DNA from: a virus
DNA length: 28,082 nt
Reading direction: 5' to 3' (one strand)
IMG/VR virus record: IMGVR_UViG_3300032093_000662
Coordinates: 1-28,082 of that record
Shown piece by piece: positions 1 through 25,974 of this stretch. A program made the translations under genes and the position numbers. Within the stretch, counting starts at the first letter, position 1, and each line of letters begins with the position of its first letter. Below the pieces are notes generated by a model. That model had not been told where the DNA came from. It was given only the letters and a program-made list of their open reading frames with translations, and did not search any database.

Positions 1-482
1 CCGACAACAGACACGACTTGTGACTTGCGGAGTTTGGAGCCATTCTTCTTCTTGTAGGCGCGTACCTTTAGGCATACTTGCCCTCCGTTACGCTGGTCGC
101 CCTTCTTATCTGGGGCGGTATTGCCTTCGATACAGGTGACTGTGCCATCGCCGTTATCTTTAACGACAATGCCAACGTGAGAGATTCGGTCTACTCCGTC
201 GTTTGGGAAATCAAAGAACACAACATCTCCTGGAAGAGGAATTGCTTCCTCAGCCTTTTCCCATTGGTTCTTCTTCATAAACGCGGTAGCACCTGCAACT
301 GTTGATACGCAATTAGGGATCTTGAGACCCACTTCATTGGCACACCAGTTGACAAATGACCCACACCAAGGCAGGAAGTTAGCCTTAGTGAAAGCACCGT
401 ACTTTGTTTCGTTGTCCTTAGGACCTTCAATTACACCGATTTCTGCTCGGGCTACTGCAATAAAGTCTAGACGTTGACCCAT
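1..482 (-). CDS. Endolysin, CHAP-type amidase/peptidase (3' end cut by window edge)
   Basis: The start lies at 482 and the frame is still open at position 1 after 160 codons, so the C-terminus is missing. The visible part has the layout of a CHAP/NlpC-like cysteine peptidase: the nucleophile is probably Cys40 in PWCGSFVNW, the general base His102 in ISHVGIV, and a third polar position is Glu119/Asn121 in IEGNT. The segment PLPGDVVFF (82-90) before the His motif is also typical of the fold. Such enzymes cut the peptide part of peptidoglycan at the end of infection. There is no signal peptide, so export would need the holins encoded just upstream. The ATG overlaps the holin stop codon by one base (TAATG). 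A C-terminal wall-binding domain, if present, is outside the window. Confidence 0.85.
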   Translation of the reverse strand, partial: MGQRLDFIAVARAEIGVIEGPKDNETKYGAFTKANFLPWCGSFVNWCANEVGLKIPNCVSTVAGATAFMKKNQWEKAEEAIPLPGDVVFFDFPNDGVDRISHVGIVVKDNGDGTVTCIEGNTAPDKKGDQRNGGQVCLKVRAYKKKNGSKLRKSQVVSVV

Positions 483-724: not shown

Positions 725-894
725 TATTCGTCCTTCATGTTTCGGATGTTGAGCGTTACTGCCCAGACAATAAGTGTTGCTATGATTGCATAACCAACGA
801 TAGTCTTTGCAGACCCTTCTAGTACCACCCAGGCGGTGAACATGCCTAGGATTGTCCAGAGTTGATTAAAGAAATCTGAGAACCATTTTTTCAT
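724..894 (-). CDS. Small two-helix membrane protein, possible second holin or antiholin
   Basis: A 56-aa reading frame starting at ATG 894-892 and ending with TAA at 726-724. It starts [13 protein letters not shown], followed by two hydrophobic stretches at about residues 13-26 and 31-49, and ends with the charged tail NIRNMKDE. It fills the interval between the secreted protein and the 80-aa holin exactly, with one-base TAATG overlaps on both sides, which strongly supports it as a real gene. Phage lysis cassettes of Gram-positive hosts often carry two adjacent small membrane proteins acting as holin and antiholin or as a holin pair; that role is inferred here from size, topology and position. 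Confidence 0.75.
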   Translation of the reverse strand: MKKWFSDFFNQLWTILGMFTAWVVLEGSAKTIVGYAIIATLIVWAVTLNIRNMKDE

Positions 895-2246
895 TAGGGT
901 TTCCTTCTATACGCGGCTGCAGCAGCAGCACCTGCTGCGGCTTGGGTGGCTATGTTTCCAGCGATAATGGCTGATAGAACAACCTTCTCTGACTCTTCTC
1001 TTACCTCTGATGACATATCTGCACCAATGTTTGATAGGGCGGTAAGGACTTGTCCTGGATCTGTAAAGAGTTCTGCAAGGAGTTCTGCAGGGTTTTCTAG
1101 TAGGGTTAAGGCTATTACCACCTCAGCCGTAAGAACGACGCCGTTAGGCAGTTCTACGGGCGTATCAGGGGGCAACACGCTGAGGTCTGTCGACTCACTA
1201 AGCACCACAACTTCTGGTACAGTAGGTTCAGGTGTTTCTATAGGAGGCTCAGGTTGTACTGGTTCAGGCGTTGGCTCAGGTTCAGTAGGTTCAACCTCAG
1301 GCTCAAGTGGCTCTGGTTCGTCAACGATCTCAGGCTCCGTGATCTCAGGTTCCTCAATAGGTTCCTCGACAGGCTCTTCTGGTTCCGCAGGAACCTCAGG
1401 CTCTACGACCTCTGGTTCATCCACTGGTTCGTCAATTTCAGGCTCTGGTTCTTCAGGAACTTCAGGAGTGGGTTCTGGCTCAGGCTCAGGTTCTGGCTCT
1501 GGAGTAGGTTCAGGTAATGGTTCTGGTTGAGGCTCTGGCCTTGGTGGCGATACCACTATTGGTTCTGGTTGCACTACTGGTACTGGCTCAGGAAGAGGAG
1601 TAACTACAGGTGTTGGAATTGATTCTACTGTTTGGGTATCTACCGTTGATGTTTCTACTGGTAGTACAGGAGTTGAAGTATCGGAAGTTGGAGTCTGTGT
1701 TTCAACAGTTACAGTTTCAGTTGCGGATACTGTCTCAGGAGGTACAACAACTACAGTTGGAGAATCAACTATCACAGTCGGAGATTCGACAGTTGCAGTT
1801 TGAGAATCAACTGTTGAAGGACTCGGAGAGGGACTTGGTTCGGATGAAGGAGCAGTGGCAGTTTCAGATACGACAGTTGAACTCTCAGAAGTTACAGTTT
1901 GAGTCTCGCTGGGACTTTCGGGACTAGGGGCTACGCCATTATAGTAACGAAGAGCGTTATCAGAAAGACTGTCACTAATAAAAACAGTGAATCGTCCATT
2001 GAATCCTCCCTCACAGTACAGTCTGGGAATACTACCCTTACCATTAAAAAAACTATTACTATTATCCCAGCCAGTCGTAGCAGTTCTAGTCTCGCTGCCA
2101 TCGGCAGTGGTACAAGTAATCTGTACGTCTAAGACCATTACGGCCTGTGATGATGCTGGGAATAAATAAGATGTGCCTATTACTAGGAGAATAATTCCTA
2201 GTCTACTTGCCGTCCTTCTCGCAGAGGAGGAGATATATTTGGTCAA
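894..2246 (-). CDS. Secreted Pro/Glu-rich stalk protein with C-terminal membrane anchor
   Basis: A 450-aa protein with a clear export signal: basic n-region (ARRTASR), hydrophobic core ([16 protein letters not shown]) and a likely signal-peptidase site after SSQA (residue 35). A small domain with two cysteines (45 and 78) follows, then a Ser/Thr/Pro/Val-rich linker (about 105-220), a Pro-Glu repeat stalk (about 220-345), a mostly helical domain (about 350-425), and an Ala-rich hydrophobic segment ending in YRRKP. This predicts a membrane-anchored protein spanning the host envelope. The start is TTG at 2246, inside the upstream gene (44-nt overlap), with only a weak Shine-Dalgarno sequence; the next ATG (residue 37) would remove the signal peptide, so I prefer TTG. 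It lies directly before the holin genes. The role is unknown; lysis accessory, envelope disruption or superinfection exclusion are candidates. Confidence 0.75.
1200..1590 (-). repeat. Degenerate Pro-Glu codon repeat tract
   Basis: Low-complexity region inside the secreted-protein gene, built of alternating CCx and GAx codons (Pro-Glu, with Val, Ile and Thr). It encodes an extended, negatively charged stalk. The complementary strand gives a spurious Gly/Ser-rich open frame that is not a gene. Confidence 0.7.
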
Positions 2247-10540: not shown

Positions 10541-11074
10541 TTACTTCTTCTTCTTTGCTTCGCGCTTTGCTTTTAGTCTTGCCTGTAGTGCTGCAATTTC
10601 TCTTTCACGTGCAGGAGTTCTTTCAATTTTGTTTGTTAAACCAGCAAGAGCGCCACCTAGCATTGAGAATCCGCCATACTTAGGCTTTGTCTTAGAAGCG
10701 GCTGCTTTCTTAACTGGAGCCTTTCCTGCGGTTGGCTTGTTAGGAACGAACATAGATCCTACGTACTTACCGCCACCATCTGACTTAGCCTGGCTAGGAT
10801 TACGATATCCTGATGGCTGTCCACCTGCAGGAGCCTTAGATGCTGGCTTATCAGGTACAAACATAGAACCGACATAACGACCAGAAGATGATGGTTTTGT
10901 TGATGCTGTTGCCTTTGCTACGCGAGCATCGCCATACATACGGCGGAGTGCTTCACGATACTCAGGAGAATTATTTGATGATGCTGCCTTGAGGGAGGCA
11001 GACATTCCCTGCTGCTTAATCTTATCAATGGTTGCTTGCGAAACCTTGATGTTTTTGTTTGGCTTAGTTGCCAT
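10541..11074 (-). CDS. Basic head protein with two VGSMFVP tags
   Basis: A 177-aa, Lys/Arg-rich protein. I place the start at ATG 11074, one base after the stop of the preceding gene, not at the in-frame ATG 11110, which lies inside that gene and adds 12 residues. Residues 10-53 form a helical domain (KVSQATIDKIKQQGMSASLK ... RRMYGDARVAKA) homologous to the 107-aa protein. Then come GRYVGSMFVPDKP, GGQPSGYRN, GKYVGSMFVPNKP, a Lys/Ala linker and a C-terminal basic helix (EIAALQARLKAKREAKKKK). The tag also opens the 435-aa internal virion protein. Probably a virion component associated with DNA or the capsid interior, inferred from charge and gene position. No known family recognised. Confidence 0.65.
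   Translation of the reverse strand: MATKPNKNIKVSQATIDKIKQQGMSASLKAASSNNSPEYREALRRMYGDARVAKATASTKPSSSGRYVGSMFVPDKPASKAPAGGQPSGYRNPSQAKSDGGGKYVGSMFVPNKPTAGKAPVKKAAASKTKPKYGGFSMLGGALAGLTNKIERTPAREREIAALQARLKAKREAKKKK
10742..10771 (-). repeat. VGSMFVP tag, copy 4 (177-aa protein)
   Basis: Encodes GKYVGSMFVP, identical in residues to copy 1 in the 435-aa protein some 7 kb away, with several synonymous differences in the DNA. Confidence 0.85.
10853..10882 (-). repeat. VGSMFVP tag, copy 3 (177-aa protein)
   Basis: Encodes GRYVGSMFVP. The following residues, DKP, also resemble the continuation of copy 4 (NKP) and copy 1 (DTP). Confidence 0.85.
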
Positions 11075-11075
11075 G

Positions 11076-11354
11076 TTACCACTTAACCTTATCTGCCCAA
11101 TACGCGGCACTCAATTTTCCTTTAGAAATGTTACTTGCGTGACGAGCCTTAAATGACTTACGTCGCGCTGCATATGATGCCGACTCTCCCTTTTTCTTTG
11201 GAGAGCCACTGACACCCTGTTGACCAAAGCGGATAGTCTTGACCGTCCCACCCACTTTTGCCACAACTACGTGTGACTTCTTTGGATGAGTCGGTGTACG
11301 CTTTGGCTTGTTATAGCCAGATACTCCTACCCGCTTTAGTCTAGGGTCTGTCAT
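11076..11354 (-). CDS. Small basic protein, DUF6321-like
   Basis: A 92-aa protein starting MTDPRLKRVGVSGYNKPKRT, with TKTIRF-like beta segment (KVGGTVKTIRFGQQGVSGSP), then AARRKSFKARHASNISKGKLSAAYWADKVKW. The motif order (SGYNKPKRTP, SHVVVAK, IRFGQQGV, SFKARH, SAAYWADKVKW) matches a small conserved family of aquatic phage proteins that I remember as DUF6321; no profile search was run. Its function is not known. It begins with a TAATG overlap on the 107-aa gene and lies among other basic small proteins after the capsid gene, so a virion or DNA-associated role is possible. Confidence 0.7.
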   Translation of the reverse strand: MTDPRLKRVGVSGYNKPKRTPTHPKKSHVVVAKVGGTVKTIRFGQQGVSGSPKKKGESASYAARRKSFKARHASNISKGKLSAAYWADKVKW

Positions 11355-11677
11355 TACTTAACCTTTGATCCGCGCATTCCTGAGCCGCCAGTAGCCTTCT
11401 TCTTACCTGGAACAAATGTTGATCCTTGGTATGAACCTGGAGCCTGTGTCTTCGCCTTTGTAACACGTGCTGCGCCGTACATGCGCTTTACGCCTTCGAC
11501 GTATGAAGCGCTTGCCTTGCCCATTACGGCTTTCTTGAGAGCGGCTGTCATGCCGTCTGCCTTGATGCGATCAATTGTTGCCTGTGAGACCTTCATTGCT
11601 GGAGCCTTTGGCTTTGACGCTGGTGCTGCATAGTTGCGGTATCCCGAAGGTTGTCCGCTTCCTGTCATTCTTGCCAT
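11354..11677 (-). CDS. Basic head protein with one diverged VGSMFVP tag
   Basis: A 107-aa protein sharing modules with the 177-aa protein two genes downstream, in a different order: SGQPSGYRN at residues 7-15, the helical domain KVSQATIDRIKADGMTAALK ... KRMYGAARVTKA at 29-74, then SYQGSTFVPGKKK at about 81-93, a diverged form of the shared tag, and a basic tail (GSGMRGSKVK). The paralogy of the helical domain is plain from the shared KVSQATID and RMYG.ARV segments. Highly basic overall. No known function; likely a virion-associated protein in the head gene block. Confidence 0.65.
   Translation of the reverse strand: MARMTGSGQPSGYRNYAAPASKPKAPAMKVSQATIDRIKADGMTAALKKAVMGKASASYVEGVKRMYGAARVTKAKTQAPGSYQGSTFVPGKKKATGGSGMRGSKVK
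11405..11440 (-). repeat. VGSMFVP tag, copy 2, diverged (107-aa protein)
   Basis: Encodes PGSYQGSTFVPG, the same frame of Tyr, Gly-Ser, Phe-Val-Pro with three substitutions (K to S, V to Q, M to T). It lies after the helical domain shared with the 177-aa protein. Confidence 0.7.
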
Positions 11678-11693
11678 TTTTGTTACCTTCCCT

Positions 11694-12089
11694 TTATCTG
11701 TATTTTGAGGTTTTCTTTGCTATCGCTTTGGGTTGTCTTACAAACTGCTTGCCTTGACTTGTACCCTTACGCTTGGCTGCAGTTGTTTTTGCGTATTCCT
11801 TGGCTGATAGAGCCTGACGTGCCTTCTTGGGAAGGTAGCGTTCTCCTGTTGCCTTGGATCCTTGAGTGCTAGGTTTACCAGATTTGGTTCCCCACTCTTC
11901 CTTTGTCCATTTAGACAAGGACTTCTGTTTGGTAGTCTTGCTACCAGAGTAGCCACCACCAGCCTTCTTATAAGCCTGAGCAACTAACTGTGCTTTACGA
12001 GCAGACCACTGACCAGGTTTACCACCTTGAGAGCCCGCCATAATGCGGTTCTTGATTCGCTCTCTTAATTCAGGCTTTGTATAGGTCAT
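11694..12089 (-). CDS. DUF5872-like basic protein
   Basis: A 131-aa strongly basic protein with two recognisable parts. The first (residues about 3-47) reads TKPELRERIKNRIMAGSQGG, then KPGQWSARKAQLVAQAYKKAG. The second (about 55-131) reads SLSKWTKEEWGTKSGKPS, ATGERYLPKKARQALSAKEY, then KGKQFVRQPKAIAKKTSKYR, the pattern of the DUF5872 family as I remember it, which is widespread in phages and large DNA viruses without a demonstrated function. The lysine content and neighbourhood of other basic genes suggest nucleic-acid contact, possibly inside the virion. No catalytic residues can be named. Confidence 0.75.
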   Translation of the reverse strand: MTYTKPELRERIKNRIMAGSQGGKPGQWSARKAQLVAQAYKKAGGGYSGSKTTKQKSLSKWTKEEWGTKSGKPSTQGSKATGERYLPKKARQALSAKEYAKTTAAKRKGTSQGKQFVRQPKAIAKKTSKYR

Positions 12090-12098
12090 ATTGTTCTC

Positions 12099-12365
12099 TT
12101 AGTTGGTGTAACCGTTTGGCCAAGTACCAGTACGATTAGCCTCAGCCTGACGCTTCTTGCGAAGTTCGGCTTCTGCTTTCTTCTGTTGCTGCTGCCAAGT
12201 TGGGTTTGAAGTAACCTTTGGCTTAGGTGTAGCGGTAGCCTTTGGTGTTGGCTTTACCTTACCAAGATCTCTAAGACCAACAGTACTTCCATTTGGAAGG
12301 ACAAGTATTGGACCAGTGTTCTTTGGTTTAGGTGAAGGCGTAGCCTTTTTCTTCATTCCTGGCAT
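12099..12365 (-). CDS. Small Lys/Pro-rich protein, function unknown
   Basis: An 88-aa protein starting MPGMKKKATPSPKPKNTGP. A short ordered-looking patch, ILVLPNGSTVGLRDLG (20-35), lies between Pro/Lys/Thr-rich arms that recall histone-H1-type tails (KPTPKATATPKPKVTSNP), followed by a Gln/Lys/Ala helix (WQQQQKKAEAELRKKRQAEANR). It starts two bases after the stop of the 51-aa gene and belongs to the same run of basic genes. I recognise no family. Disordered, charge-rich tails would suit nucleic-acid binding or packing inside the head, but this is inference. Confidence 0.65.
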   Translation of the reverse strand: MPGMKKKATPSPKPKNTGPILVLPNGSTVGLRDLGKVKPTPKATATPKPKVTSNPTWQQQQKKAEAELRKKRQAEANRTGTWPNGYTN

Positions 12366-14373: not shown

Positions 14374-14853
14374 TTATTGACCGCTGAGAATGGTTAGAAT
14401 TTCATCTTCGGAAGTTGCATTCGCTAGGCGATTTGCAATATCATCCGAAGCCCCTGGTGCTTCTGCATTAGTCAGAACATTGTTCATCTTCTGCATTGAA
14501 GCGATATCTTCTTGAGATACCTTTGGAGCGTCCTGTTGAATACCAAACACGTCGGCATACTGGTCGATCCATGCGGAAATTGCTTCCTCGCTTGCTTCGA
14601 TGTCATTTGGAACGAATGCTGCGATCTTTGCGTTGACTCCACGGGATGTAAAAACATCTTTTAGAATCCGCTCTTTTTGAGATTTACTCAGTTCTCCCAG
14701 GTTACTCTCTAGTTCTTTTGCTCTGCGTTGCTCGGCCTTTAGCGCTTTGCGGAGTTTCTTTACTAGATCGGTATCGTTGTCGTATGTCGGGGTGTAATCC
14801 TCGTCATCTTCGTCTTCGATGTCCCAGTTGATGTTGTCGCGGTTGTTGCTCAT
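14374..14853 (-). CDS. Capsid scaffolding protein
   Basis: A 159-aa acidic protein. I start it at ATG 14853 because GGGAGAGG precedes it at good spacing; an in-frame ATG at 14910 would add 19 residues without a comparable site. The N-terminus is very acidic (IEDEDDEDYTPTYDND); a coiled-coil helix follows (VKKLRKALKAEQRRAKELES), then a segment typical of actinophage scaffolds (SRGVNAKIAAFVPNDIEASEE, written in part, and ISAWIDQYADVFG), and a C-terminal helical tail. Scaffolds assemble the procapsid from inside and then leave. The position directly before the capsid gene is the classical order. Confidence 0.8.
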   Translation of the reverse strand: MSNNRDNINWDIEDEDDEDYTPTYDNDTDLVKKLRKALKAEQRRAKELESNLGELSKSQKERILKDVFTSRGVNAKIAAFVPNDIEASEEAISAWIDQYADVFGIQQDAPKVSQEDIASMQKMNNVLTNAEAPGASDDIANRLANATSEDEILTILSGQ

Positions 14854-14921
14854 AGCAACCTCTCCCTTGTTAGTAGTTGGCGTACGCCTCAAGATTGGAA
14901 GGGGCTCCAAGTTGGCTCGTA

Positions 14922-14970: not shown

Positions 14971-16401
14971 TTATACTGCTCCGAGTGTGGAGCGTGTACC
15001 TAGTGAGCCACCGAATCCTCGGCTTGCTCCCATGGTTCCGCTCTTACGCTTAAATGCTAGTTCTTCTTGTTCTTTGCGCTTCTTGCGTAATTCTGATGCC
15101 ATTCCTAGGAACTCTTCTGTTTGAAGATCTTTTTGGATAGCCTCTTTGTCAGCCTTGACTCCATAAATATTCTCTAGTTTAGTCAGTGGCTCAAGAGTCT
15201 TTCCGATCTCTTCAAAGCCTGTAGATGCAAGTTGAGCGATCTGAGCCTCTGTATAGCCCTTCTCAGTAAGAGAAGCAGCAAGAGCCTTCATGCCTTCGAT
15301 CTGACCAGGGGCAGTAGAAATACCTGTCTTAGAACGACGGATTGCTTCTGCTACAAATGCTCCTGTATTTCTATTGATCTCTAACTGCTCTTTGCCAATC
15401 TTTGAATCAAGGTAGAAGTCTTGTAGACCTTCCTTGGTTGCAATATAACCTAATGCTATAAGTGCATCTGTCTTTGCTGGGTCTGCCTGAATAGCAGCCA
15501 AACGTGCAGTATTAGCGCGTTCATCAAGGTCAAGGACTGTGACGTTGTTCTTTACGTAGTTCTTGAGTGACTCTGTGCTAAGGAACTTGTCGCTCAGGCC
15601 ATACTTCTGCTTAATACCCTTATAGCCTTCAACAGCGTTAAACAGTTCGCCTGCTTCTTTAGGGGTAGCAAGACCCTCATTGAGGTATCCATACTCTGAG
15701 TAGAATGGTGAGGTTAACTTAGTTCCATTCTTGAGTGTGTATTCTTTGGTATTGAGAAATATAGCAACAGCATTATCGTAATCAAGATCATCCTTAAGGA
15801 GTGAATTAAGATAGGATGTTGAGGAGTCAAGCATATTTGACGAAAATCCTTGGGACTTGAGTAGCGCCTTGAGAACATCTACGCTTGTAGATGGAGTTCC
15901 TGTTGCAGATGTTGTCCCACCACCAGCATTGGCTTTAGCGCCACCGCCAGCGCCTCCTCCTGGAGTTACGCTACCTGTATTCTGGTATAGTTTCCACTGT
16001 CCAGTATCAGTGCCACCGATCCATGTATAACGGAATCCTGCTGGTGCTACTGGTTGTACTGCCTTATTAAATATAGGGTTTCCTGCGGCTTCTTCAACCG
16101 TCATTCCTGCGTCTATAGCACGTTGTTCCTGCATTTTCTGAGTACGCGTAACAACAGGTACTGGCTTTGGTGTTCCGTCAGGATTAAGACCTTGCGATAC
16201 ATACAGATCAGCAAGATTCTTCTTCATGCTATCTAAAAGAGTTGTGAGTTTACCAAGCATTTTTTCATCTGCGGTTTGCGGTTTAGCAACTGCATTCCGC
16301 TTCGCAGCAATTCTGGCTTTTTCTGCCTTGTCCTCAGCAGCCGCCACTGCAGCCGCCTGTGCTGGAGTTGCCTTGGCTCTACTACTTGAATCTGTTGCCA
16401 T
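14971..16401 (-). CDS. Putative internal virion protein (476 aa)
   Basis: A 476-aa mostly helical protein. Residues 1-60 are Ala/Lys-rich and coiled-coil-like (AQAAAVAAAEDKAEKARIAA); around 120-145 lies a small motif (GFRYTWIGGTDTGQWKLY); then a Gly/Ala/Ser linker (GGGAGGGAKANAGGG); the remaining two thirds are helical with regular hydrophobic spacing, ending in a basic helix (ASELRKKRKEQEELAFKRK) and a Gly/Ser tail (GASRGFGGSLGTRSTLGAV). It lies between the 435-aa protein and the scaffold leader. Proteins of this shape in this position are seen in actinophages and other environmental phages; a role inside the head, ejected with DNA, is my inference. No catalytic motif recognised. Confidence 0.55.
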   Translation of the reverse strand: MATDSSSRAKATPAQAAAVAAAEDKAEKARIAAKRNAVAKPQTADEKMLGKLTTLLDSMKKNLADLYVSQGLNPDGTPKPVPVVTRTQKMQEQRAIDAGMTVEEAAGNPIFNKAVQPVAPAGFRYTWIGGTDTGQWKLYQNTGSVTPGGGAGGGAKANAGGGTTSATGTPSTSVDVLKALLKSQGFSSNMLDSSTSYLNSLLKDDLDYDNAVAIFLNTKEYTLKNGTKLTSPFYSEYGYLNEGLATPKEAGELFNAVEGYKGIKQKYGLSDKFLSTESLKNYVKNNVTVLDLDERANTARLAAIQADPAKTDALIALGYIATKEGLQDFYLDSKIGKEQLEINRNTGAFVAEAIRRSKTGISTAPGQIEGMKALAASLTEKGYTEAQIAQLASTGFEEIGKTLEPLTKLENIYGVKADKEAIQKDLQTEEFLGMASELRKKRKEQEELAFKRKSGTMGASRGFGGSLGTRSTLGAV

Positions 16402-16403
16402 GA

Positions 16404-17711
16404 TTACCCCAGTGCATTCTTTAGTGATTGAGCCATATTGACTGCTGTATTAATTGCTGTTGATGTACTATCGTAACGCTTATCGTTCTTAATAATCTTC
16501 TGCATCTCAAACTCGTTTGGCAATCTGTACTCACCACTCTCGTCTTTGAAGTTAAGAACCTGTACTGCAAGAGGATCCTTAATACCGATGTTGGTCTCAA
16601 GGCCGGCCGATAGTGTCTGCAGCACTGGAGCAACATACTTGTTGGCTGTTTCGCCTGGCTTAAGAGAGTTCTTGATAGCCATAAAACGGTTACCAGACTT
16701 GGCTTGAATTTCTGATACGTACTGCTCGTACATTTCGTTCTGGACCTTCTCGTCAGGGTTAGATAGAAGATTCTTAATAAGCGGAGAAACTGTTGCAAAG
16801 TCAGGAGCAACATCATAGTTGCCCGTGTGGTATGCCTTGATTGTATCGTAGATGGTCTTTGCAGAACCACCGATATCATCCACATTCCACTGTTCTTCTG
16901 GGAAGTTTGCTACAAGGAAGTCAGCAAGAAACTCTGTTTGCTCTTCTGCTGTGAATCCTTCACCCTGTGATGTAGATGTTCCAGTTGTTACAGTTTTATA
17001 CTGCTTAACACCATCAACGGTTTTAATGCTAGAAAATTCTTTGTTTCCAAATTTGTCGACCTTCTGCTTCTTGGTCTTAGGGTCAATAACTGGCTTGCTC
17101 TTAGTATCATAGATTGGAGCAAACTCTGTTTTACCAGAAGTAGTTGTAGGTTGATTCTGCTGCTTGACCTGTGCATTCCATGAATCCTGAAACTTCTTAT
17201 CTAGTTCTGGGGCTGGCCACTGACCAAATGCTGTGAAATAAGCATTGTTGTAGTACTGGCGAGCATCGCCAAGATCCTTGAATTGAAGTGCTGTCTGAAT
17301 TTGCTTGGTATATCTTGTAGTTGTATCTGGCTGCTTGGGGCCATCTTTTGGCTTAACAGTACTGTTGTAGGCTTTTAAGAAATCAAGTGGAAGCAACTGG
17401 CTTGATATAGATGCAAGGATAATCTTTTCAATCGCAGAAGATTCATCTACTCCAACTACTCCAACTCCTAGAGGTGTTGTCGACTTACTTAATCCAGACT
17501 TACGAAGCAAGTTTTGCATCTCAACAAAGTCTGTACCCATTGCTTTTTGGACATCCATAAGATATCCTGCTTTTCTTACTGGATCTGTTTCCTGAGCAAA
17601 TAAAACAAAAGGGTCTTTTGAGTCGCTATATATACCAAGGATTCCTGACATTTGCTGTTGGGTAGCAGGTGTATCAGGCACGAACATAGATCCTACATAT
17701 TTTCCTGCCAT
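16404..17711 (-). CDS. Putative internal virion protein with N-terminal VGSMFVP tag (435 aa)
   Basis: A 435-aa protein that begins MAGKYVGSMFVPDTP, placing at its very N-terminus the tag found twice in the 177-aa and once in the 107-aa basic protein. The rest is mainly helical (IEKIILASISSQLLPLDFLK, TALQFKDLGDARQYYNNAYF, EEQTEFLADFLVANFPEEQW), with a hydrophilic linker at about 185-245. The TAATG overlap at 17711 couples it to the 1944-aa gene. An internal virion or ejection protein partnered with its two large neighbours is the best reading, from position and composition. An alternative is a second scaffold-like or portal-associated protein. Confidence 0.55.
   Translation of the reverse strand: MAGKYVGSMFVPDTPATQQQMSGILGIYSDSKDPFVLFAQETDPVRKAGYLMDVQKAMGTDFVEMQNLLRKSGLSKSTTPLGVGVVGVDESSAIEKIILASISSQLLPLDFLKAYNSTVKPKDGPKQPDTTTRYTKQIQTALQFKDLGDARQYYNNAYFTAFGQWPAPELDKKFQDSWNAQVKQQNQPTTTSGKTEFAPIYDTKSKPVIDPKTKKQKVDKFGNKEFSSIKTVDGVKQYKTVTTGTSTSQGEGFTAEEQTEFLADFLVANFPEEQWNVDDIGGSAKTIYDTIKAYHTGNYDVAPDFATVSPLIKNLLSNPDEKVQNEMYEQYVSEIQAKSGNRFMAIKNSLKPGETANKYVAPVLQTLSAGLETNIGIKDPLAVQVLNFKDESGEYRLPNEFEMQKIIKNDKRYDSTSTAINTAVNMAQSLKNALG
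17676..17705 (-). repeat. VGSMFVP tag, copy 1 (N-terminus of 435-aa protein)
   Basis: Encodes GKYVGSMFVP as residues 3-12 of the 435-aa protein. Codons differ from those of the other copies at third positions, so the peptide rather than the DNA looks conserved. Confidence 0.85.
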
Positions 17712-20700
17712 TATTCAGCCTCTCTTAATATACCAGCGAATACACCGTAGTACATACGGGAGAATTCAGGATTGTTAGACATTAATGTTTCCGCTAAGGC
17801 AACAAGTTCATTACGCATAAGTGTTTGAACTCCGCCTTTAGATGATAGTTCTGCATAGTTTGAAACCTTGAAGTCATTAAGAAGTTTTCTAAACTCATCG
17901 AACTGTTTGTAGAATGTGACTGTCTCTTCGTAAACAGAAGATGACTGGAAGATTGGATCTTCAATAGCCCGACCAATTGTTGCTATCTTCTCGTCCTGAA
18001 CACCAGTCACAATTGCATCTACTGGCTTAGCGCCACCAAACTGCTTGTTCAGGATAGCAATTTGCTCGTTGTACCAGAAATCAGTGTAACGACCAGCAAT
18101 CTGCTGTTCAGCAAGTTGGCTCTTAAGCATGGCGTAAACCATACCCTCTGCCTCTTGTGCTATCTCTGCAGTGGACATCTGACGACGAGCACCCATCTTT
18201 TTCTGCCAGTTAGTATACTTCATCGCATACTCTCCGCCAGGGAAGAAGTAAGGAATAATGTCACCAGACGGAGTAGCATACTTGCTTACTGCATCTGGGT
18301 TGTTATTCAAGAATGTCCAAGCATCCGCTGTACCAGAGGTTCCTGGTGTGGTGTTGCTAATAGCAACTAGGATGTTTTTGTGACCAAACTTGTCAGCAAA
18401 TTTAGACGCTGCTGTTCCTTGATCTCCAGGATAACGCTTTTTTAGTTTATCCCAGTGTTCGTAAAGCATTGTCATGGTCATAAAGTTTTGCTTATTGTTA
18501 GGGTTCTTGATGCTTAGTAGAACTTCTTGTATAGGTGTTGCTGGCGAAATGCTTTGGAATATAGCACCAAAGACATTTGCCCACTTAGCCATACCCTCTG
18601 CATCGCTGAATAATTGATTTCTTGCTTCATCACTAGCAAATGGGTTATCCCCATAGTCGCCCGTAGAGGCTAGGTACGAAGCCCAGTCTTTAACTCCACG
18701 CTGTGTGTCTGCATTATCTGCGAAGAAAGCGTTAGTAATTTTCTTTGCCCATGCTGGAAATATAATATCTGTTGCAGTTTTAGGCTCACCAAATGGTGTA
18801 ACAATATCTCTAAGTAAGTCATCTATTGGACCGAATGCTTTGTCTCTTCCACTTAGTGTGTAAGCAGCGACCATAGCAGGTCCCATACCAGGAGATATAG
18901 GGTTAACAGAACCAAATGCAAGGTTCAAAGATTGTACTGGTGAAGTTATCTGTAGAGCATCTTTTGCATTGATGTTTCTACCAGCAAGAGCGCCAATAAA
19001 ACTACCAACAAGAGGCATCTTAAATTTTAGATCATCAGAATTTTCGTCTTTATAAAAGAATCCTTGATTATCATCATAAGTCATGCCAGAAATATCGTAA
19101 ATTACGTTTGAGCCTTCTTTTTTAAGAGAGTCAAACGCTTTGAAAAACTTAATTGTAGGTGCTGGATTAGAGAACATAAGTTCTCCCCACTTGCCAATAG
19201 TGTTGTAGTGAGCCTGAGCAAACGGTGCTACTAAACGTGCTGCGTTAGCCCACTGCTTCTGCTTAGCAGCGTTATAGAACAATCCCTCTACATACTTAGA
19301 TGCTTGCTGTGCTGCAAGAGAATCAACTGTTCTTAGTGTTGCTCCGCCTCTGTGGACGTAAGAAGGATTTTTTAAGCGCTGCTTGAGTGTGCTGTTGATA
19401 ACACGTAGTGGTGCTGGAACTCTACCAATGATTTTCTTTCCACCTTTAGATGTGGGTGCAAAGGCTTTGTTGGCATTGTTACGCAACGTAATCAAATCAT
19501 CAGTGCTGAGCATATCTGCATATGAGGCTACAAAGTCCCAATAACTAGCATCAAACTCAGGTCCGAAGTTAACTTTGCTTTCGACTCTTGCCGCTAGGCC
19601 AAAGAAAGCGTCTGTGAATTTCTTCGCTACTTTAGTAGTACCATCAAAGACTACCTTTTCGTTGTATACACGTACGCGTGAACCTACCATTTGGGCTGGC
19701 TCAAAGATTGCAGCAATTTGCTTTTCAAAGTTCTTTTCTGCGGCAAGAACTTGATCTGTTGTTAAACCCTTTTGAGTATATGGCGTTCTGATAGTAACTA
19801 ACTTACCACCAAATGGAACTTTTACTTCTCCGTCACGCAGGAGGGAAAGAACTAGATCTCTTTGTGATCCTTGACCAGCAAGAAGATCAATCTGCCCAAT
19901 AACTGTGTTAGGTTGCTTTGCGTCAAATAGATACGTAAGAAGATTGTCCTTGTTGATGTTTGACTTCACAACACCAGGACCAGTTTCCTTAAAAGGATTA
20001 ATAAGAAGCAGTTCGTTCATTCCATCATTATCATTGTAGATTGCTGATAGGAACTCTCGCAACTTATTTCCTGGCTCATCAAATGTATCAATGAGATCAT
20101 CAACATATTGAACTTGCGCTTCTGGTGTTCCTGCTTGCATTACGCGAATAACATCTGGAATAAACTTATCTGATGAGAAGTTATTTACTGTCCAAGCAAG
20201 ACCCTGTAGATATTCTTCACTTGTAGAATCTACAACGTTGTATGTTCTAAAGATACTTGTTGCTTTTCTTCCAGGAGCACCGTAGTCTGCAGTAGAGTCT
20301 TTGCCACGACGGGTTAAAGCCTGACGAGCAATGATAGATTCAGAGAACTGGACCTCTGCATCTGTAGACTTAAAGAACTGCCCAAGGGCATTTACCCCAA
20401 GTTTGCTTCTGCTTGATAACGCTCTTTGAGCCCAGTTACCTTCTGGGTTAGCAATCATCATAGAGATAAAGCCAATAGGGTTATTAAATAAACTGTTATG
20501 GCCAGATAAGAACTGGCGCATTTGCATTTCTCCTACGTTACGCATAATGTAGGCAAAACGACCCACCAACTGCGCTGTACGCCAAAGATCTCCTGCTTCT
20601 TCAAGAAGAACTTTAGTTGATCGTGCTGTTCCGTATAGTGGAATGTTAGTCTTAAAATCTATAATAGATTTAGTTACTGCACGTGAATCTGGAAGATTAA

Positions 20701-23545
20701 GTACAGTTTTAACCAACTGGCTCTCAAGCATTCCTTTTGGTAGGCGAACTGTCTTTCCGCCTGCTTCAATAACACCGCCACCACCATTAGCAAGTGCTAA
20801 CTCAAGAGAATAATTTGATAGAACTACATCATCTCTACCAGATACTTTAATACTTTCTTTAAGTTTAGCAAGTCCTTCTGTGACGTCTCCACCAAGCGAA
20901 CCTGCAATTTCATCTAGCAACTTGCCAATACCATTGTGGACGGCAGCAGCACGTTCAGCGTTAGTTTCAGCAGCAAAGATTGCTCTTTGTGTATCAGCAA
21001 TAACTCTGTCTCGTGTTGCCTTGGTAATAATTGCACCAAATCGAGATGCAATATTGATAGAACTCATCCAGTCTTCAATACCAGTATTTAATGATGTAAG
21101 GTCATCTAAATTAAGTGCTGTGGATCGAACATAGAAACGACCAAATGCTCTGTTGATATTTTCCGACATACGGATAGCGTTTAGGTTTACACCTGGAATT
21201 AAACGAGCAACTGGGTTGGCTGCAATTTTAAGCCCAGTTCCAACAGCCTTTTTGACTGCAAGTAAATCCGCACCACTGCTTACTTGGTTAAGTAAGATTC
21301 TGTATACGTCGTCTACTGTTGTAGCCAAAGAAAGTTCTTTGATAACTCTATCGTCTAATTTACGTCTAAATAGGTTACGAAGTTTAACTACGTCTTTTTC
21401 GCCAGCAACAATCTCAGCAACTACCTTAAACTGACGGCCAAGCATGAACTTAATTCCTTCGGTCATGTTTGGTGTATCAAGAACATTACCCATAAAGCCA
21501 TCTGTAAGTCCAGCACTTGCTAGAATAGATTCTTTGTAAACTGACTTCTCTGCAAGTTCTGCTTCTAGTTTAAGTAAGTTTTTAAGACCCTTTGCTTTAG
21601 GATCTGATATCAACTCTCTGAGGATATCTGGATCTCCGTTTGCTTTTTCGCGTAGGAGACTAAACCATTTTTCTTTATCTTCAAGGTCTAGTTGTTTATT
21701 AACTAGGTCATCAAATTCATTCTGACGGACAGCCAGTTCATCCTGAGGCTTCTTAATAGACTGTAGTAGTCTAAGAACATTAGGTCCTAGATTTGTAGGA
21801 TCTGCAAACTCTGATGCTGCGATGCCAATCTCAGCGCGTGTGGCTGCAATTCGTCCCATATTGGTAATTGCAACTCCACCAGTTCCGCCATAGATGGAAC
21901 GGATATTGGTAAAGCCATCAACCTTCCAGATGTCTTCTACAAGTTCTGAGACTTTAGACATTACTGCTGGGTTTTTTAGCGCTGCAATCTCACCAAGAAG
22001 AGCACCAAGACTCTTTCCTGCTGCTAATTCATCGCCAACAACGAACAAAGATCCTGTAAATCCATCAAGTGCTGCTGCTTCGTCACGAAGTCTAGTTGCT
22101 AGTTCGTTATATACTCTAAATTCTGGATCTGCTACGCTCTTGCCTAGTTTATCTAAACGATCTGCTAATTGAGCACGACGAAGACCTTCTGCTGTGCGTG
22201 TTGCTTCATCAGCCTTTGTAAAGTCGTCAGCCAAATCAAGTAATCTTAATTCATCTGCATCGTTTGCAGTAACTGCATATTCATCTAGATAATGCGCTCC
22301 AGCGCTAACCTTACCATACTGTGGAACTTCATCAAGAAGGATATAGCCATCAAAGAATCCACCAGTACTTTTCATATCGGCAGACAATAGAGCCATTGCC
22401 TCGGATAGTTCACCAGTTTGAGTCTTAGGGTTGGTTACAAACCATTCAGAAATGCTTTTATCGGAAAGTGCTTGCTTAGAAACATCGTCTGCTGGATATG
22501 ATGCCCATCGAGCAGCATTAAGTGTTTCAAAGTTTAATAGTTTACGAGCAGTTCTGATTTGCTTGTCGACAATCTGTTTTTCAACAGCAATAATTTCGTC
22601 TTCTTTTTTCTTAACGTCTTTTGCAACACGCTTGTAAGGTGAAGAAATCTTTTTTGTAATCTTGTCTTGTATAATCTTGCCTTCTTTTTCAAGAAGTTCT
22701 ACTGCTTCTTTTTCAAGTTGAGTCATTCCAACTTTGTTGTATTGCATAACATCATTTGCTAATGTGGTTGCTTTCTTGCCCTGTGTAAGAATCTTGCCTA
22801 CAGCGCCAGGTCCAAAATACATAGATGGATCTAATCCTATGTTTAGCGTAGCATCTACAATTCCAGATAAAACTTTGTATGCGTTTTCTTCTGGATTCAT
22901 TCCAATACCATTAAAAATGTGTCGTCCAATGGTGTATGATTCTCCATTAATCTGACCATACTTGCCCATGGCTTTAATCTGTGCTTTTCCAGCACCACTC
23001 TTAGGGCCAACAAAGAAGCCAGAACCTTGATCTGAAAAGTTTCTTATCAAAGACCCAAAAGCAGTTGCTTCGGACCAACCGCCTTCAAGCATTTCTTTTG
23101 ATGAAATGTCCTCACCACGATAAACTGCTAACGCATTTCGTGTTGCAAGTGTTAAAGTATCGTAAGGCAAACGAAGAGTAGCAAAAAGACCACGAGTTAG
23201 ACCCTTAAATGGATCGTAAAGGCCCTCTTTTAATCCAGCCTGGATAGTACCAAGGAATCCGCGATCAGGTTCTACGCTCTTTTTAATTTTATCTACGTTA
23301 AATGCGTCTGTTTTAAGTGCAGCAATACCATCAATGGTTGTGATCTTATTGATACCAGGAGTATCTGCAGTCAATCCCTGACGAACCATAGATACAACTA
23401 GGTCATTACTCAACCCAGGATATTTTTGGGTGATCGAATTAAAATTAGATAGTGCATCTGGAGACAATGAATTCATTGAGTACCGCATCATTGTCTTATA
23501 AGAATTTTTCCTAGCCTCTAGGATGGCGTTTAGATTATCAGCCAT
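17711..23545 (-). CDS. Giant putative internal virion/ejection protein (1944 aa)
   Basis: At 5.8 kb this is the largest gene, about a fifth of the window. The N-terminal 170 residues contain amphipathic stretches (FLGTIQAGLKEGLYDPFKG, GLFATLRLPYDTLTLATRNAL). Lys/Glu-rich coiled coils occur at about residues 273-340 and 594-690. Further on are helical regions, the aromatic segment PFAQAHYNTIGKWGELM near 1440 and VNPISPGMGPAMVAAY near 1543. There is no tape-measure-like repetition, and I find neither a lytic transglycosylase pattern nor T7/N4-type RNA polymerase motifs. Proteins this size between portal and capsid genes are usually injected with the DNA (compare T7 gp16 in role, not sequence). 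The overlaps TAATG at both ends indicate stoichiometric coupling. Function unproven. Confidence 0.6.
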   Translation of the reverse strand: MADNLNAILEARKNSYKTMMRYSMNSLSPDALSNFNSITQKYPGLSNDLVVSMVRQGLTADTPGINKITTIDGIAALKTDAFNVDKIKKSVEPDRGFLGTIQAGLKEGLYDPFKGLTRGLFATLRLPYDTLTLATRNALAVYRGEDISSKEMLEGGWSEATAFGSLIRNFSDQGSGFFVGPKSGAGKAQIKAMGKYGQINGESYTIGRHIFNGIGMNPEENAYKVLSGIVDATLNIGLDPSMYFGPGAVGKILTQGKKATTLANDVMQYNKVGMTQLEKEAVELLEKEGKIIQDKITKKISSPYKRVAKDVKKKEDEIIAVEKQIVDKQIRTARKLLNFETLNAARWASYPADDVSKQALSDKSISEWFVTNPKTQTGELSEAMALLSADMKSTGGFFDGYILLDEVPQYGKVSAGAHYLDEYAVTANDADELRLLDLADDFTKADEATRTAEGLRRAQLADRLDKLGKSVADPEFRVYNELATRLRDEAAALDGFTGSLFVVGDELAAGKSLGALLGEIAALKNPAVMSKVSELVEDIWKVDGFTNIRSIYGGTGGVAITNMGRIAATRAEIGIAASEFADPTNLGPNVLRLLQSIKKPQDELAVRQNEFDDLVNKQLDLEDKEKWFSLLREKANGDPDILRELISDPKAKGLKNLLKLEAELAEKSVYKESILASAGLTDGFMGNVLDTPNMTEGIKFMLGRQFKVVAEIVAGEKDVVKLRNLFRRKLDDRVIKELSLATTVDDVYRILLNQVSSGADLLAVKKAVGTGLKIAANPVARLIPGVNLNAIRMSENINRAFGRFYVRSTALNLDDLTSLNTGIEDWMSSINIASRFGAIITKATRDRVIADTQRAIFAAETNAERAAAVHNGIGKLLDEIAGSLGGDVTEGLAKLKESIKVSGRDDVVLSNYSLELALANGGGGVIEAGGKTVRLPKGMLESQLVKTVLNLPDSRAVTKSIIDFKTNIPLYGTARSTKVLLEEAGDLWRTAQLVGRFAYIMRNVGEMQMRQFLSGHNSLFNNPIGFISMMIANPEGNWAQRALSSRSKLGVNALGQFFKSTDAEVQFSESIIARQALTRRGKDSTADYGAPGRKATSIFRTYNVVDSTSEEYLQGLAWTVNNFSSDKFIPDVIRVMQAGTPEAQVQYVDDLIDTFDEPGNKLREFLSAIYNDNDGMNELLLINPFKETGPGVVKSNINKDNLLTYLFDAKQPNTVIGQIDLLAGQGSQRDLVLSLLRDGEVKVPFGGKLVTIRTPYTQKGLTTDQVLAAEKNFEKQIAAIFEPAQMVGSRVRVYNEKVVFDGTTKVAKKFTDAFFGLAARVESKVNFGPEFDASYWDFVASYADMLSTDDLITLRNNANKAFAPTSKGGKKIIGRVPAPLRVINSTLKQRLKNPSYVHRGGATLRTVDSLAAQQASKYVEGLFYNAAKQKQWANAARLVAPFAQAHYNTIGKWGELMFSNPAPTIKFFKAFDSLKKEGSNVIYDISGMTYDDNQGFFYKDENSDDLKFKMPLVGSFIGALAGRNINAKDALQITSPVQSLNLAFGSVNPISPGMGPAMVAAYTLSGRDKAFGPIDDLLRDIVTPFGEPKTATDIIFPAWAKKITNAFFADNADTQRGVKDWASYLASTGDYGDNPFASDEARNQLFSDAEGMAKWANVFGAIFQSISPATPIQEVLLSIKNPNNKQNFMTMTMLYEHWDKLKKRYPGDQGTAASKFADKFGHKNILVAISNTTPGTSGTADAWTFLNNNPDAVSKYATPSGDIIPYFFPGGEYAMKYTNWQKKMGARRQMSTAEIAQEAEGMVYAMLKSQLAEQQIAGRYTDFWYNEQIAILNKQFGGAKPVDAIVTGVQDEKIATIGRAIEDPIFQSSSVYEETVTFYKQFDEFRKLLNDFKVSNYAELSSKGGVQTLMRNELVALAETLMSNNPEFSRMYYGVFAGILREAE

Positions 23546-23973
23546 TAAGATTCCAGTTCGTTATATGCTTCTACCATCATCATTAGTTGACGAGAATCTG
23601 GGTTAGCGGCATACAATGCACGAACAAACATAGAGTCAGGGCTGATAGTGTCAACAGGTATCTGCTGTGCTGAATCATCAACACCAGGACCACCTTTTGC
23701 ACCGCTTGAAAGAGGGGCTCCTTGTGTTCCTGGAGCAAAAGCATTTACTGTAGCAACAGGAGTTCCTGCTGTTACAACATCTCCTGCTGAGACTGCACTT
23801 GCTGTAGTTCCTGTAGATTCAGCAGATGCAAGAGACTTCATATCTTTGCGTTCTCCGTATGCTCCCCCAGAAGCATTTTCAATCTTAGCGTTACGCTGAA
23901 TCTTCTGGACCATGCCGCGGTCAACACGCTTTGAGTCTTTTCCGACTCCTGATACAGGTGCAATATTCGACAT
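23545..23973 (-). CDS. Small protein after portal region, function unknown
   Basis: A 142-aa protein: a basic N-terminal quarter (VGKDSKRVDRGMVQKIQRNAK), a low-complexity Ala/Gly/Thr/Val/Pro middle (about 45-105), and an acidic-amphipathic C-terminal helix (DSMFVRALYAANPDSRQLMM, then VEAYNELES). The unstructured middle and helical end suggest an adaptor that binds a partner through its C-terminus. It lies between the 84-aa protein and the giant internal protein and is translationally coupled to the latter (TAATG at 23545). I recognise no family. Confidence 0.6.
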   Translation of the reverse strand: MSNIAPVSGVGKDSKRVDRGMVQKIQRNAKIENASGGAYGERKDMKSLASAESTGTTASAVSAGDVVTAGTPVATVNAFAPGTQGAPLSSGAKGGPGVDDSAQQIPVDTISPDSMFVRALYAANPDSRQLMMMVEAYNELES

Positions 23974-24231: not shown

Positions 24232-25974
24232 TTATCCTCCTAGTCCTGCTAACATAGTTGCTAAATCTGCTGGTGGTCCTGCTTGTTGAGGGACTCCACC
24301 AGAAGGTTGTCCAGGAGCGGCTGGGGATTGGGGAGCCTGCTCAACTGGGCCTTGTGTGCCTGGTGGAGCCATCTCTGGCTGTGCTGGTTGTTCAGGCTGT
24401 TGAGGCGGCGTGAACACTGCCAACGCAGCATCCTGTATGTTTTCTCCCCTAGTGATGCGATCAATCACATCGGCAATATTCTTAATAAGCGGTGAAGGAT
24501 CTGCTCCTTGCGCTGCCATTGCAGGAATTGCTTGTGCAGTTGCTGTAATAGCCTGAGTGAGATTCTCCTGCATTTTCTCTACAGTAATGCGTGTTTCTTC
24601 CATGGTTGTATTAACATTCCATGGTAGTTCTCGACGGATAAAGTCTTTGGATACAAGGTCTGCACCTAGTGCTTGTAGTGAGAAGATCAATGCACGTGAA
24701 GGGTCTAATCCAGCCATCAAGCCATAGCGAACTTCAATAGAAGTGTCGCCATTGATATCCTTGCTTGGCATGTACTTTAACTCGTACGGCGTACCCTGTG
24801 CTGTTCCTCTAACGCTCTTTTCCTTGTCGAAAAGAACTTCGTCCATCTCAAACGCTAACTTAATGACATCCTCGAACACCTCAGCAAGGATGGTTTGACC
24901 AGCCTTGATCTGAGAGTCGAAAGCACCAAGTAACGCCTGGACACCTTGACCAGTAATAATACTTGCGTCAATGTTTCCAGTTCTACCCTCAGGATATCGA
25001 GCACCAAGTCGTAATTCTGATTGGAGTGCTGATTGCTCCTGAAAAGCAGCAGCAGGAATGTCCAAACGGACACGCCCGACACCTTGTGGTTGAGTTGTAC
25101 GGATAACTGCATCAGGACCCATAGGAAGGTCCAATACATCGTTAGGTACAACAAGTGGCGCTTGGATTGACTTTTCAGCCGCTTCCATTGCCAGGTTAGC
25201 AAAACGAGCACGTGCCATCTGTACATAGATGACATCATCGAACTGTCCGCGTGGTTCATCATCAATGCCAGGACGACGTGCAATACGCACCATCATCTTG
25301 CCAAGAGGATTCTTCACCTTGCTAAGAACTAAATTATTGTTATGTGGCATGTAAAGAACCGTCTGGTCTTTATCCATGTACTTGATAAGTTCAATATCGT
25401 TGCCTGTGTTTTCACCAAAGCGACCAAGGATAGTGGTTGCAAACTCTGGGAACTCATGTGCAAGTTCATTAGATGTCTTCTTGTAACGCTTAGCGTATGC
25501 TACGCAGCGTCCAAAACGGTCAAACTCTGGGTAAGATCCCATTGGATCTTCGACACGGATGAAAGGAATATCTCCTTCAAAGTCTGGCTCAATGTGAATT
25601 GGCAAGAATCCGTATGAGAAGTACCAGTCTGCTCCCCAGTACATCTGTGACTGGAGGCGTGAATGTGCAACATAGTTGTTGGCAATCATTGCTCGCTTAT
25701 CAGCAAACTTACGTGCCTTGGCATCTGTAACCTTGACTGCGCCGCAGTTAAATGATGGTAGTGGGGCTAGAACTTCTGCAAGGTCACGGGCTGCAACGTC
25801 GATAAAGTTAGCAACCATTGAGTGAGGTAGTCCCTCAGGGAACATATCTGGGAAGATGCTAGCAATCTGGCCTTTGCGAACAGCCTGAATTTGTGACATG
25901 CGAAAATCGCGCTCAGAATGCAAGCGCTTGAGATTATCAACGCGCTTAGCGATTCTATCAATATCTAATGCCAT
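24232..25974 (-). CDS. Portal protein
   Basis: A 580-aa protein, normal length for a portal of a short-tailed or siphophage-like virus. The N-terminal helices, the WYFSYGFLPIHIEPD strand (about 117-131), RVEDPMGSYPEFDRFGR (141-157), the VIYVQMARARFANLAMEAAEKS helix (written in part; the clip/stem region) and the acidic helix FDSQIKAGQTILAEVFEDVI fit the portal fold as I know it from actinophages. The last 70 residues are Pro/Gln/Gly/Ala-rich and probably disordered. It forms the dodecameric ring through which terminase pumps DNA. It lies directly after terminase (2-nt gap), the usual order. Confidence 0.85.
   Translation of the reverse strand: MALDIDRIAKRVDNLKRLHSERDFRMSQIQAVRKGQIASIFPDMFPEGLPHSMVANFIDVAARDLAEVLAPLPSFNCGAVKVTDAKARKFADKRAMIANNYVAHSRLQSQMYWGADWYFSYGFLPIHIEPDFEGDIPFIRVEDPMGSYPEFDRFGRCVAYAKRYKKTSNELAHEFPEFATTILGRFGENTGNDIELIKYMDKDQTVLYMPHNNNLVLSKVKNPLGKMMVRIARRPGIDDEPRGQFDDVIYVQMARARFANLAMEAAEKSIQAPLVVPNDVLDLPMGPDAVIRTTQPQGVGRVRLDIPAAAFQEQSALQSELRLGARYPEGRTGNIDASIITGQGVQALLGAFDSQIKAGQTILAEVFEDVIKLAFEMDEVLFDKEKSVRGTAQGTPYELKYMPSKDINGDTSIEVRYGLMAGLDPSRALIFSLQALGADLVSKDFIRRELPWNVNTTMEETRITVEKMQENLTQAITATAQAIPAMAAQGADPSPLIKNIADVIDRITRGENIQDAALAVFTPPQQPEQPAQPEMAPPGTQGPVEQAPQSPAAPGQPSGGVPQQAGPPADLATMLAGLGG

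Follow-up and report, generated by a model that had tools for sequence, protein, structure and literature searches.

What are three large proteins doing between the portal and scaffold genes of a freshwater phage? The question arises in IMGVR_UViG_3300032093_000662, a whole virus record that is itself a genome fragment; we analysed all of its 28,082 bases, hereafter the window. An earlier note reported three ORFs of 1944, 435 and 476 aa at this place, taking up 8.6 kb or about 30% of the window, and regarded them as putative ejection proteins. The three ORFs are confirmed, coordinate for coordinate, on the minus strand, and they cover 8,575 of the 28,082 bases (30.5%). We infer, with a probability of about 0.8, that their products, probably joined by a 142-aa protein as adaptor, make up the internal ejection complex of a short-tailed actinobacterial phage. 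The features needed for the argument are listed here, with the three large genes called the cassette and the structural genes outside it the chassis.

24232 to 25974, minus strand: portal (phrog_104, 6.7e-26); chassis, outside the cassette
23545 to 23973, minus strand: 142-aa protein, free of cysteine, a homolog of Beephvirinae gp7
17711 to 23545, minus strand: the giant, 1944 aa, family W (gW), proposed main ejection protein; a cysteine-free ORF with a mostly helical C-terminal model
16404 to 17711, minus strand: p435, proposed ejection protein; its C-terminal domain is of the phrog_6654 family and common to Immanuel3 gp11 and gp12
17676 to 17699, minus strand: the tag YVGSMFVP, residues 5-12 of p435
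14971 to 16401, minus strand: p476, proposed ejection protein; phrog_8424 family, homolog of Immanuel3 gp13
14374 to 14910, minus strand: acidic scaffold-like protein (phrog_648, 2.7e-4); chassis
11354 to 11677, minus strand: 107-aa basic protein with the variant tag YQGSTFVP and a QPSGYRN motif
10541 to 11110, minus strand: 189-aa basic protein with the tag twice (at about 10853-10876 and 10742-10765)

Read in the direction of the genes, the window begins with TerL, portal, two small genes of 84 and 142 aa, giant, p435, p476 and the scaffold-like gene, and continues with MCP, small basic proteins, 301-aa and 600-aa tail genes, three Gly-rich proteins, a 658-aa protein and an endolysin-like gene. 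The giant and p435 genes overlap in a TAATG junction. The contrast with T7 that the earlier note drew is correct: T7 genes 14-16 come after tail genes 11 and 12. Chance ORFs can be dismissed, because the giant has 31 relatives in IMG/VR viral contigs at 58-100% identity and the same three-gene order recurs; among the gene orders listed with both giant and p435, p435 directly follows the giant every time. At the other end of the window, the endolysin-like gene (3-482, minus strand; phrog_21357, 1.8e-24) is cut by the record end and adjoined by a small hydrophobic protein at 482-724. Beside these lysis genes lies a 450-aa Pro/Glu/Thr-rich protein (894-2246, minus strand) with a hydrophobic N-terminal stretch and an Ala-rich C terminus, whose position is occupied in G006 by a 480-aa ORF with a similar start.

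The MCP and the 658-aa protein pointed to named phages: Streptomyces podoviruses of the Beephvirinae, and OX376640 and OX376641, unannotated records that are the Planktophila phages E7 and F5. Both were isolated on 'Ca. Planktophila' strain LanE-43 (PMC10202952). WhiB, described as an actinobacterial marker in the available text of PMC10202952 and PMC6802176, was detected in 14 of 19 records, and 9 of the 10 longer ones that encode a window-type giant have it; it is absent from the window, which is a fragment. We take the window to be part of the genome of an actinobacterial phage. The available text of PMC11536984 describes one of the Beephvirinae, Abafar, as a podovirus with a 16 nm tail. 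In relatives of 41.9 and 41.3 kb at most two ORFs exceed 700 aa, namely the giant and (in G001) a protein of the 658-aa family, so that no separate tape measure is seen in either.

The gene order of the cassette region is common to the Beephvirinae: gp9-gp13 of Immanuel3, FlowerPower, Kumquat and Abafar occupy the same slot in the same order, and their counterparts of p435 and p476 are clearly homologous to ours. A PHROG scan placed p435 in phrog_6654 (E 1.9e-5), the family of Immanuel3 gp11 and gp12, and p476 in phrog_8424 (E 8.7e-12), the family of gp13. With hhalign, p435 matched gp11 at E 5.6e-92 and gp12 at 1.9e-38, and p476 matched gp13 at 2.8e-80; the jackhmmer profiles behind these values may already have contained cross-family members, and the independent PHROG scan agrees with them. 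An N-terminal NLPC_P60 domain (3.6e-30) in gp11 and an N-terminal SLT domain (2.5e-5) in gp12 are fused to one shared C-terminal domain. This domain behind differing starts suggests that the C terminus is the conserved part and the N terminus a swappable payload.

Of 26 aligned p435-type members (A1), three carry NlpC/P60 and three carry SLT. Pfam revealed no wall hydrolase in the window cassette, and p435 has neither NlpC/P60 nor SLT in the 26-member alignment. Whereas the Beephvirinae have two p435 paralogs, one with NlpC/P60 and one with SLT, plus gp10, the window has a single p435 with no recognised hydrolase. Beephvirinae gp10 (274 aa, phrog_13037; 11427-12251 in L033), which lies between the giant and the p435 paralogs, has no window counterpart. 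Judged by its sequences, the window set is a relative of the putative Beephvirinae-type ejection cassette and not a full member, its p435 lacking the hydrolase domain. (For the 67 clustered p435 rows, A6 took 61 and A7 took 58.)

The giant is harder to place. The earlier note recognised no motif in it, and there is indeed no Pfam match and no PHROG match at E<=0.01, phrog_10618 included; sequence searches of phages and the PDB returned nothing, and two scans of host genomes for relatives found none. Four giant families share the one slot, with 72 (W), 26 (F), 22 (B) and 10 (C) entries, counted as loci of which some are on the same contig. The window giant belongs to W, those of the Beephvirinae to B, and those of E7 and F5 to C and F. 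In a clean profile comparison, F and B giants align in two colinear blocks (E 1.2e-4 and 4.7e-4), and the F5 giant independently matches phrog_10618, the Immanuel3 gp9 family, at 3.1e-13; by their profiles F and B are clearly related. A gF-gB value of E 1.5e-58 was discarded because the gB profile already contained F members. W and B align in two colinear hhalign blocks (E 0.005 and 0.0065) and C and B at E 0.0038, with reversed-profile controls as low as 0.017. Alone, no direct hhalign comparison of the window giant with the other families reaches significance (W-C best E 0.018, F-W 0.06); F-C gives 0.2. From colinearity, a shared aligned stretch and the common slot, W and C giants are probable but unproven relatives of the others, and the homology between the window giant and those of the Beephvirinae is tentative.

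Profile comparison and structure prediction had been proposed as checks; the former yielded the homologs of p435 and p476, and the latter linked neither p435 nor the modelled giant segment to a known ejection protein by fold. The p435 model (mean pLDDT 78.5; about 85-95 in most blocks of the C-terminal domain) matched, in BFVD, a minor tail protein of FlowerPower (E 1.4e-4) as well as other viral proteins that are uncharacterised, and had no PDB match below E 0.29. An AF2 model of giant residues 800-1944 was mostly helical and poor (pLDDT 52.1, pTM 0.35). Against PDB structures it reached only Z under 7, to unrelated helical proteins, and its BFVD matches (E 5.8e-9, 5.0e-7 and 1.4e-4) were to unnamed or uncharacterised viral proteins.

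E7 and F5 show how the cassette behaves as a unit. They share with the window the chassis order, an actinobacterial host and the giant-p435-p476 set. Their DNA is 96-98% identical up to E7 position 8372 and again from 16922; the unaligned block between contains the giant, p435 and p476 in both phages, with an extra 67-aa ORF in F5. On the left the block stops inside the counterpart of the 142-aa gene, and on the right where the third gene ends. Chassis proteins are 91.6-100% identical (TerL 99.7, portal 96.0, scaffold 98.7, MCP 99.0, 301-aa 99.3, 658-family 98.6 and 178-aa gene 91.6%), as against 23.3% for the giant, 28.9% for p435, 28.8% for p476 and 45.8% for the 142-aa counterpart. The exchanged blocks are nonetheless homologous by profile: the 364-aa and 482-aa proteins of F5 match p435 and p476 at 6.5e-11 and 7e-15, and its giant matches the B profile at 4.2e-8. 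In phages of a single host strain, the giant/p435/p476 set has been exchanged in one piece while the chassis stayed the same, an argument that the three proteins act together. Because its E7/F5 counterpart straddles the left exchange boundary (46% identity), the 142-aa protein is a candidate adaptor between chassis and cassette. Among the 62 rows of a portal tree, the W (26) and the B (13) cassettes each group in one clade; C (9) and F (14) are mixed with each other and show 4 and 3 changes, of which starred branches force 2 and 1.

A second property of the cassette is the exclusion of cysteine. Counted by family, with identical sequences removed and fragments kept, W giants have 0 cysteines in 75,215 aa (53 sequences), C giants 0 in 17,715 (10) and F giants 0 in 37,665 (26), or none in 130,595 aa altogether. 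The 24 B giants have 3 in 31,765 aa, all lying either before an annotated start or within a short L104 ORF, where the giant is split in pieces. There is none in p476 (40,196 aa, 89 sequences) or in the 142-aa family (4,966 aa, 35 sequences). The 109 p435 sequences have 19: the catalytic DCSG cysteine of NlpC/P60 accounts for 16, and the other 3 lie within the first 12 residues of long ORF calls; the Beephvirinae cassette is likewise free of cysteine save for that catalytic residue. In the window the cassette has 0 cysteines in 2,997 aa, versus 12 in 4,555 aa of other structural ORFs. The exclusion is visible in the DNA of the giant, where TGT/TGC occurs 0 times in frame and 31 and 129 times in the other two frames. 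Portal (0.425%), TerL (0.694%), the 658-family (0.530%) and the 301-family (0.203%) contain more cysteine; the MCP (0.063%) and scaffold (0.088%) of these same phages have little of it too.

That last observation suits a different reading, in which the three proteins are internal core, portal-vertex assembly or packaging factors that stay in the head. Their position between portal and scaffold suits it too, as does the 142-aa gene that links chassis to cassette. However, cysteine is excluded from the cassette much more strictly than from MCP or portal, and wall hydrolase domains on p435 relatives make sense only outside the head. Head assembly factors would also be expected to co-evolve with portal, scaffold and MCP, which are 96-99% identical between E7 and F5, yet the cassettes of these phages are unrelated at the DNA level. 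We consider a purely head-bound role improbable.

The cysteine pattern extends to model phages. In ejection proteins of T7, P22, N4, phiKMV, SP6, epsilon15 and Sf6 we counted 7 cysteines in 16,509 aa, compared with 148 in other virion and packaging proteins that total 20,067 aa (Fisher 4e-30, with residues that are not independent). The seven phages and the proteins counted as ejection proteins were our choice, made in part from annotation; N4 gp51/gp52 and epsilon15 gp15-gp17 are ones that we take to be ejection proteins. The N4 vRNAP has none in the 3,342 aa counted. An exception to the pattern is epsilon15 gp14-gp17 (L155), with 5 in 2,574 aa. The near absence of cysteine is thus a trait found here in model phages and not an established criterion for ejection proteins, and we found no paper stating it in the open-access literature. 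The lambda tape measure is also free of cysteine (0 in 853 aa). The absence fits passage through the portal and by itself does not separate ejection proteins from tape measures.

N4 offers a further parallel, a giant cysteine-free protein with two partners, and with it a reading in which our giant acts as a virion RNA polymerase like that of N4, or as some other injected host-takeover enzyme, and p435 and p476 are its helpers. The size and composition of the giant agree with this, and N4 co-ejects two further proteins according to the available text of PMC12633501. The N4 protein, however, is a polymerase; in our giant no polymerase domain was found, nor any enzyme domain in Pfam, PHROGs or PDB sequences, the fold evidence here being a model of residues 800-1944, half of it at pLDDT <50. 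Four giant families hardly linked by profiles are also unlike a conserved catalytic core, and we rate an enzyme as quite unlikely, about half as probable as a head-bound role. Less likely again is a polyvalent conflict protein of the LPD38/MuF type, injected against host defences: the size, the hypervariable block and the exchange between phages of one host strain would suit one, but in the window giant Pfam finds neither a nuclease nor a protease or transferase domain, and the hydrolase-bearing relatives of p435 are left unaccounted for. LPD38 itself (PF18857) was found in 0 of 6 records, and control genomes gave no match either. The least probable reading, a tape-measure protein of a long tail, can appeal to a large giant free of cysteine like lambda H and to weak BFVD matches to tape measures (best E 0.05), but the gene lies before scaffold and MCP and not downstream of a tail tube gene, two larger relatives have no long-tail gene set, and a relative is a podovirus by EM in the available text of PMC11536984.

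We favour an ejection complex because of gene order, homology to hydrolase-bearing podovirus proteins, the lack of a tape measure in the larger relatives, exchange as a unit and exclusion of cysteine. The findings on order, homology, exchange and cysteine lend good support to the suggestion of an ejection apparatus of a distinct lineage; the role of the proteins in the virion we infer. The T7 gp14/gp15/gp16, P22 gp7/gp20/gp16, phiKMV gp35-37 and SP6 gp35-37 sets likewise consist of small, middle and giant internal proteins nearly free of cysteine, and some members (T7 gp16, by annotation) carry a wall hydrolase, as do the window's relatives. Unlike the window cassette, those sets are encoded after the tail genes, in phages of Gram-negative hosts, and they have no detectable sequence or fold relation to it (the giant model being poor); no sequence relation was found to any solved PDB structure, T7 gp14, gp15 and gp16 included. 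T7 gp14 has transmembrane helices, according to the available text of PMC8954989, whereas the cassette shows no transmembrane-like segment (highest 19-residue Kyte-Doolittle mean 1.17, in the giant). The missing fold link, transmembrane segment and window hydrolase, and a cysteine trait that is not specific, all count against an ejection complex.

The earlier note further suggested that the proteins might be loaded through a VGSMFVP tag. The tag is a genuine repeated peptide: YVGSMFVP occurs once in p435 and twice in the 189-aa basic protein, and its variant in the 107-aa basic protein, which has the QPSGYRN motif in common with the 189-aa one. The three exact copies have 2 to 5 synonymous differences and no amino-acid change in eight core residues, indicating that the tag is kept as a peptide and not as DNA. 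Its distribution is narrow, with a VGSMF-type tag in 9 of 47 p435-family rows. Other peptides are shared in the same manner, GTPFGQA by p476 and a basic protein (L074, L075) and YKSADAAR by p435 and a basic protein (L097). In 5 of 46 same-phage pairs, the ejection and the basic protein have an exact 6- or 7-mer in common, compared with 16 (7-mers) and 46 (6-mers) of 2,070 cross-phage control pairs; the 46 were reduced from 57 loci by identical basic protein, and both counts are inflated by related lineages. We left out the w189 profile, which had drifted into other basic proteins. At 9 of 47 rows and 5 of 46 phages we rejected the tag as a general loading signal. It is possibly a docking peptide in some lineages, with the scaffold-like protein as a possible partner.

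Several proteins that are both very small and very basic (net charge about +9 to +36) are encoded between MCP and the 301-aa gene, in the window at 10541-12365 (minus strand) and in L074, L075, L097, L021, L029, L015 and L004. In the largest, strings of short tags come after a conserved N-terminal stretch, KVSQATIDKIK.... Some of these phages encode a basic protein with a tag (KSADAARAAAM) between TerL and portal as well (L034 4983-5438, its L124 counterpart, and L016); it is 100% identical in E7 and F5. A basic protein of 92 aa (window 11076-11354, minus strand) matches phrog_7595 at 8.6e-40 and, weakly (0.0024), a family called minor head protein and DNA pilot. As a guess, the small basic proteins between MCP and the 301-aa gene could be DNA-binding internal head proteins.

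If the three proteins form an ejection complex, they would be made beside portal and scaffold and packed into the procapsid above or around the portal. After adsorption they would leave through the portal and the short tail, partly unfolded, which would account for the strict absence of cysteine. Outside they would refold into a conduit across peptidoglycan and membrane, with the giant as its main span, and in the Streptomyces relatives the p435-type proteins would supply the peptidase and the transglycosylase that cut the wall. The p435 of the window lineage may have lost a recognisable hydrolase, or never had one, and would carry a short tag in its place. We can also picture, as a tentative idea that is somewhat more likely wrong than right, that short-tailed phages of monoderm actinobacteria have a true ejectosome swapped as one compatible set on an unchanged chassis, that threading through the portal selects against cysteine, and that lineage-specific peptides address ejection and small basic internal proteins to one docking site in the head.

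E7 and F5 amount to a natural swap experiment: one host strain, near-identical virion genes and different putative ejection sets. Freedom from cysteine would be a cheap sequence-only marker for portal-passing proteins, testable across all phage genomes. The available text of a review assigns ejection proteins to podoviruses that infect Gram-negative bacteria and says that phi29-like phages of Gram-positives lack them (PMC8954989), which weighs against our reading; we found no paper on ejection proteins of these actinobacterial podoviruses in the open-access literature. An actinobacterial set would widen that Gram-negative picture. If phages of Streptomyces and of the very abundant freshwater actinobacteria do have such a set, thick-walled monoderm hosts would be entered in the same way.
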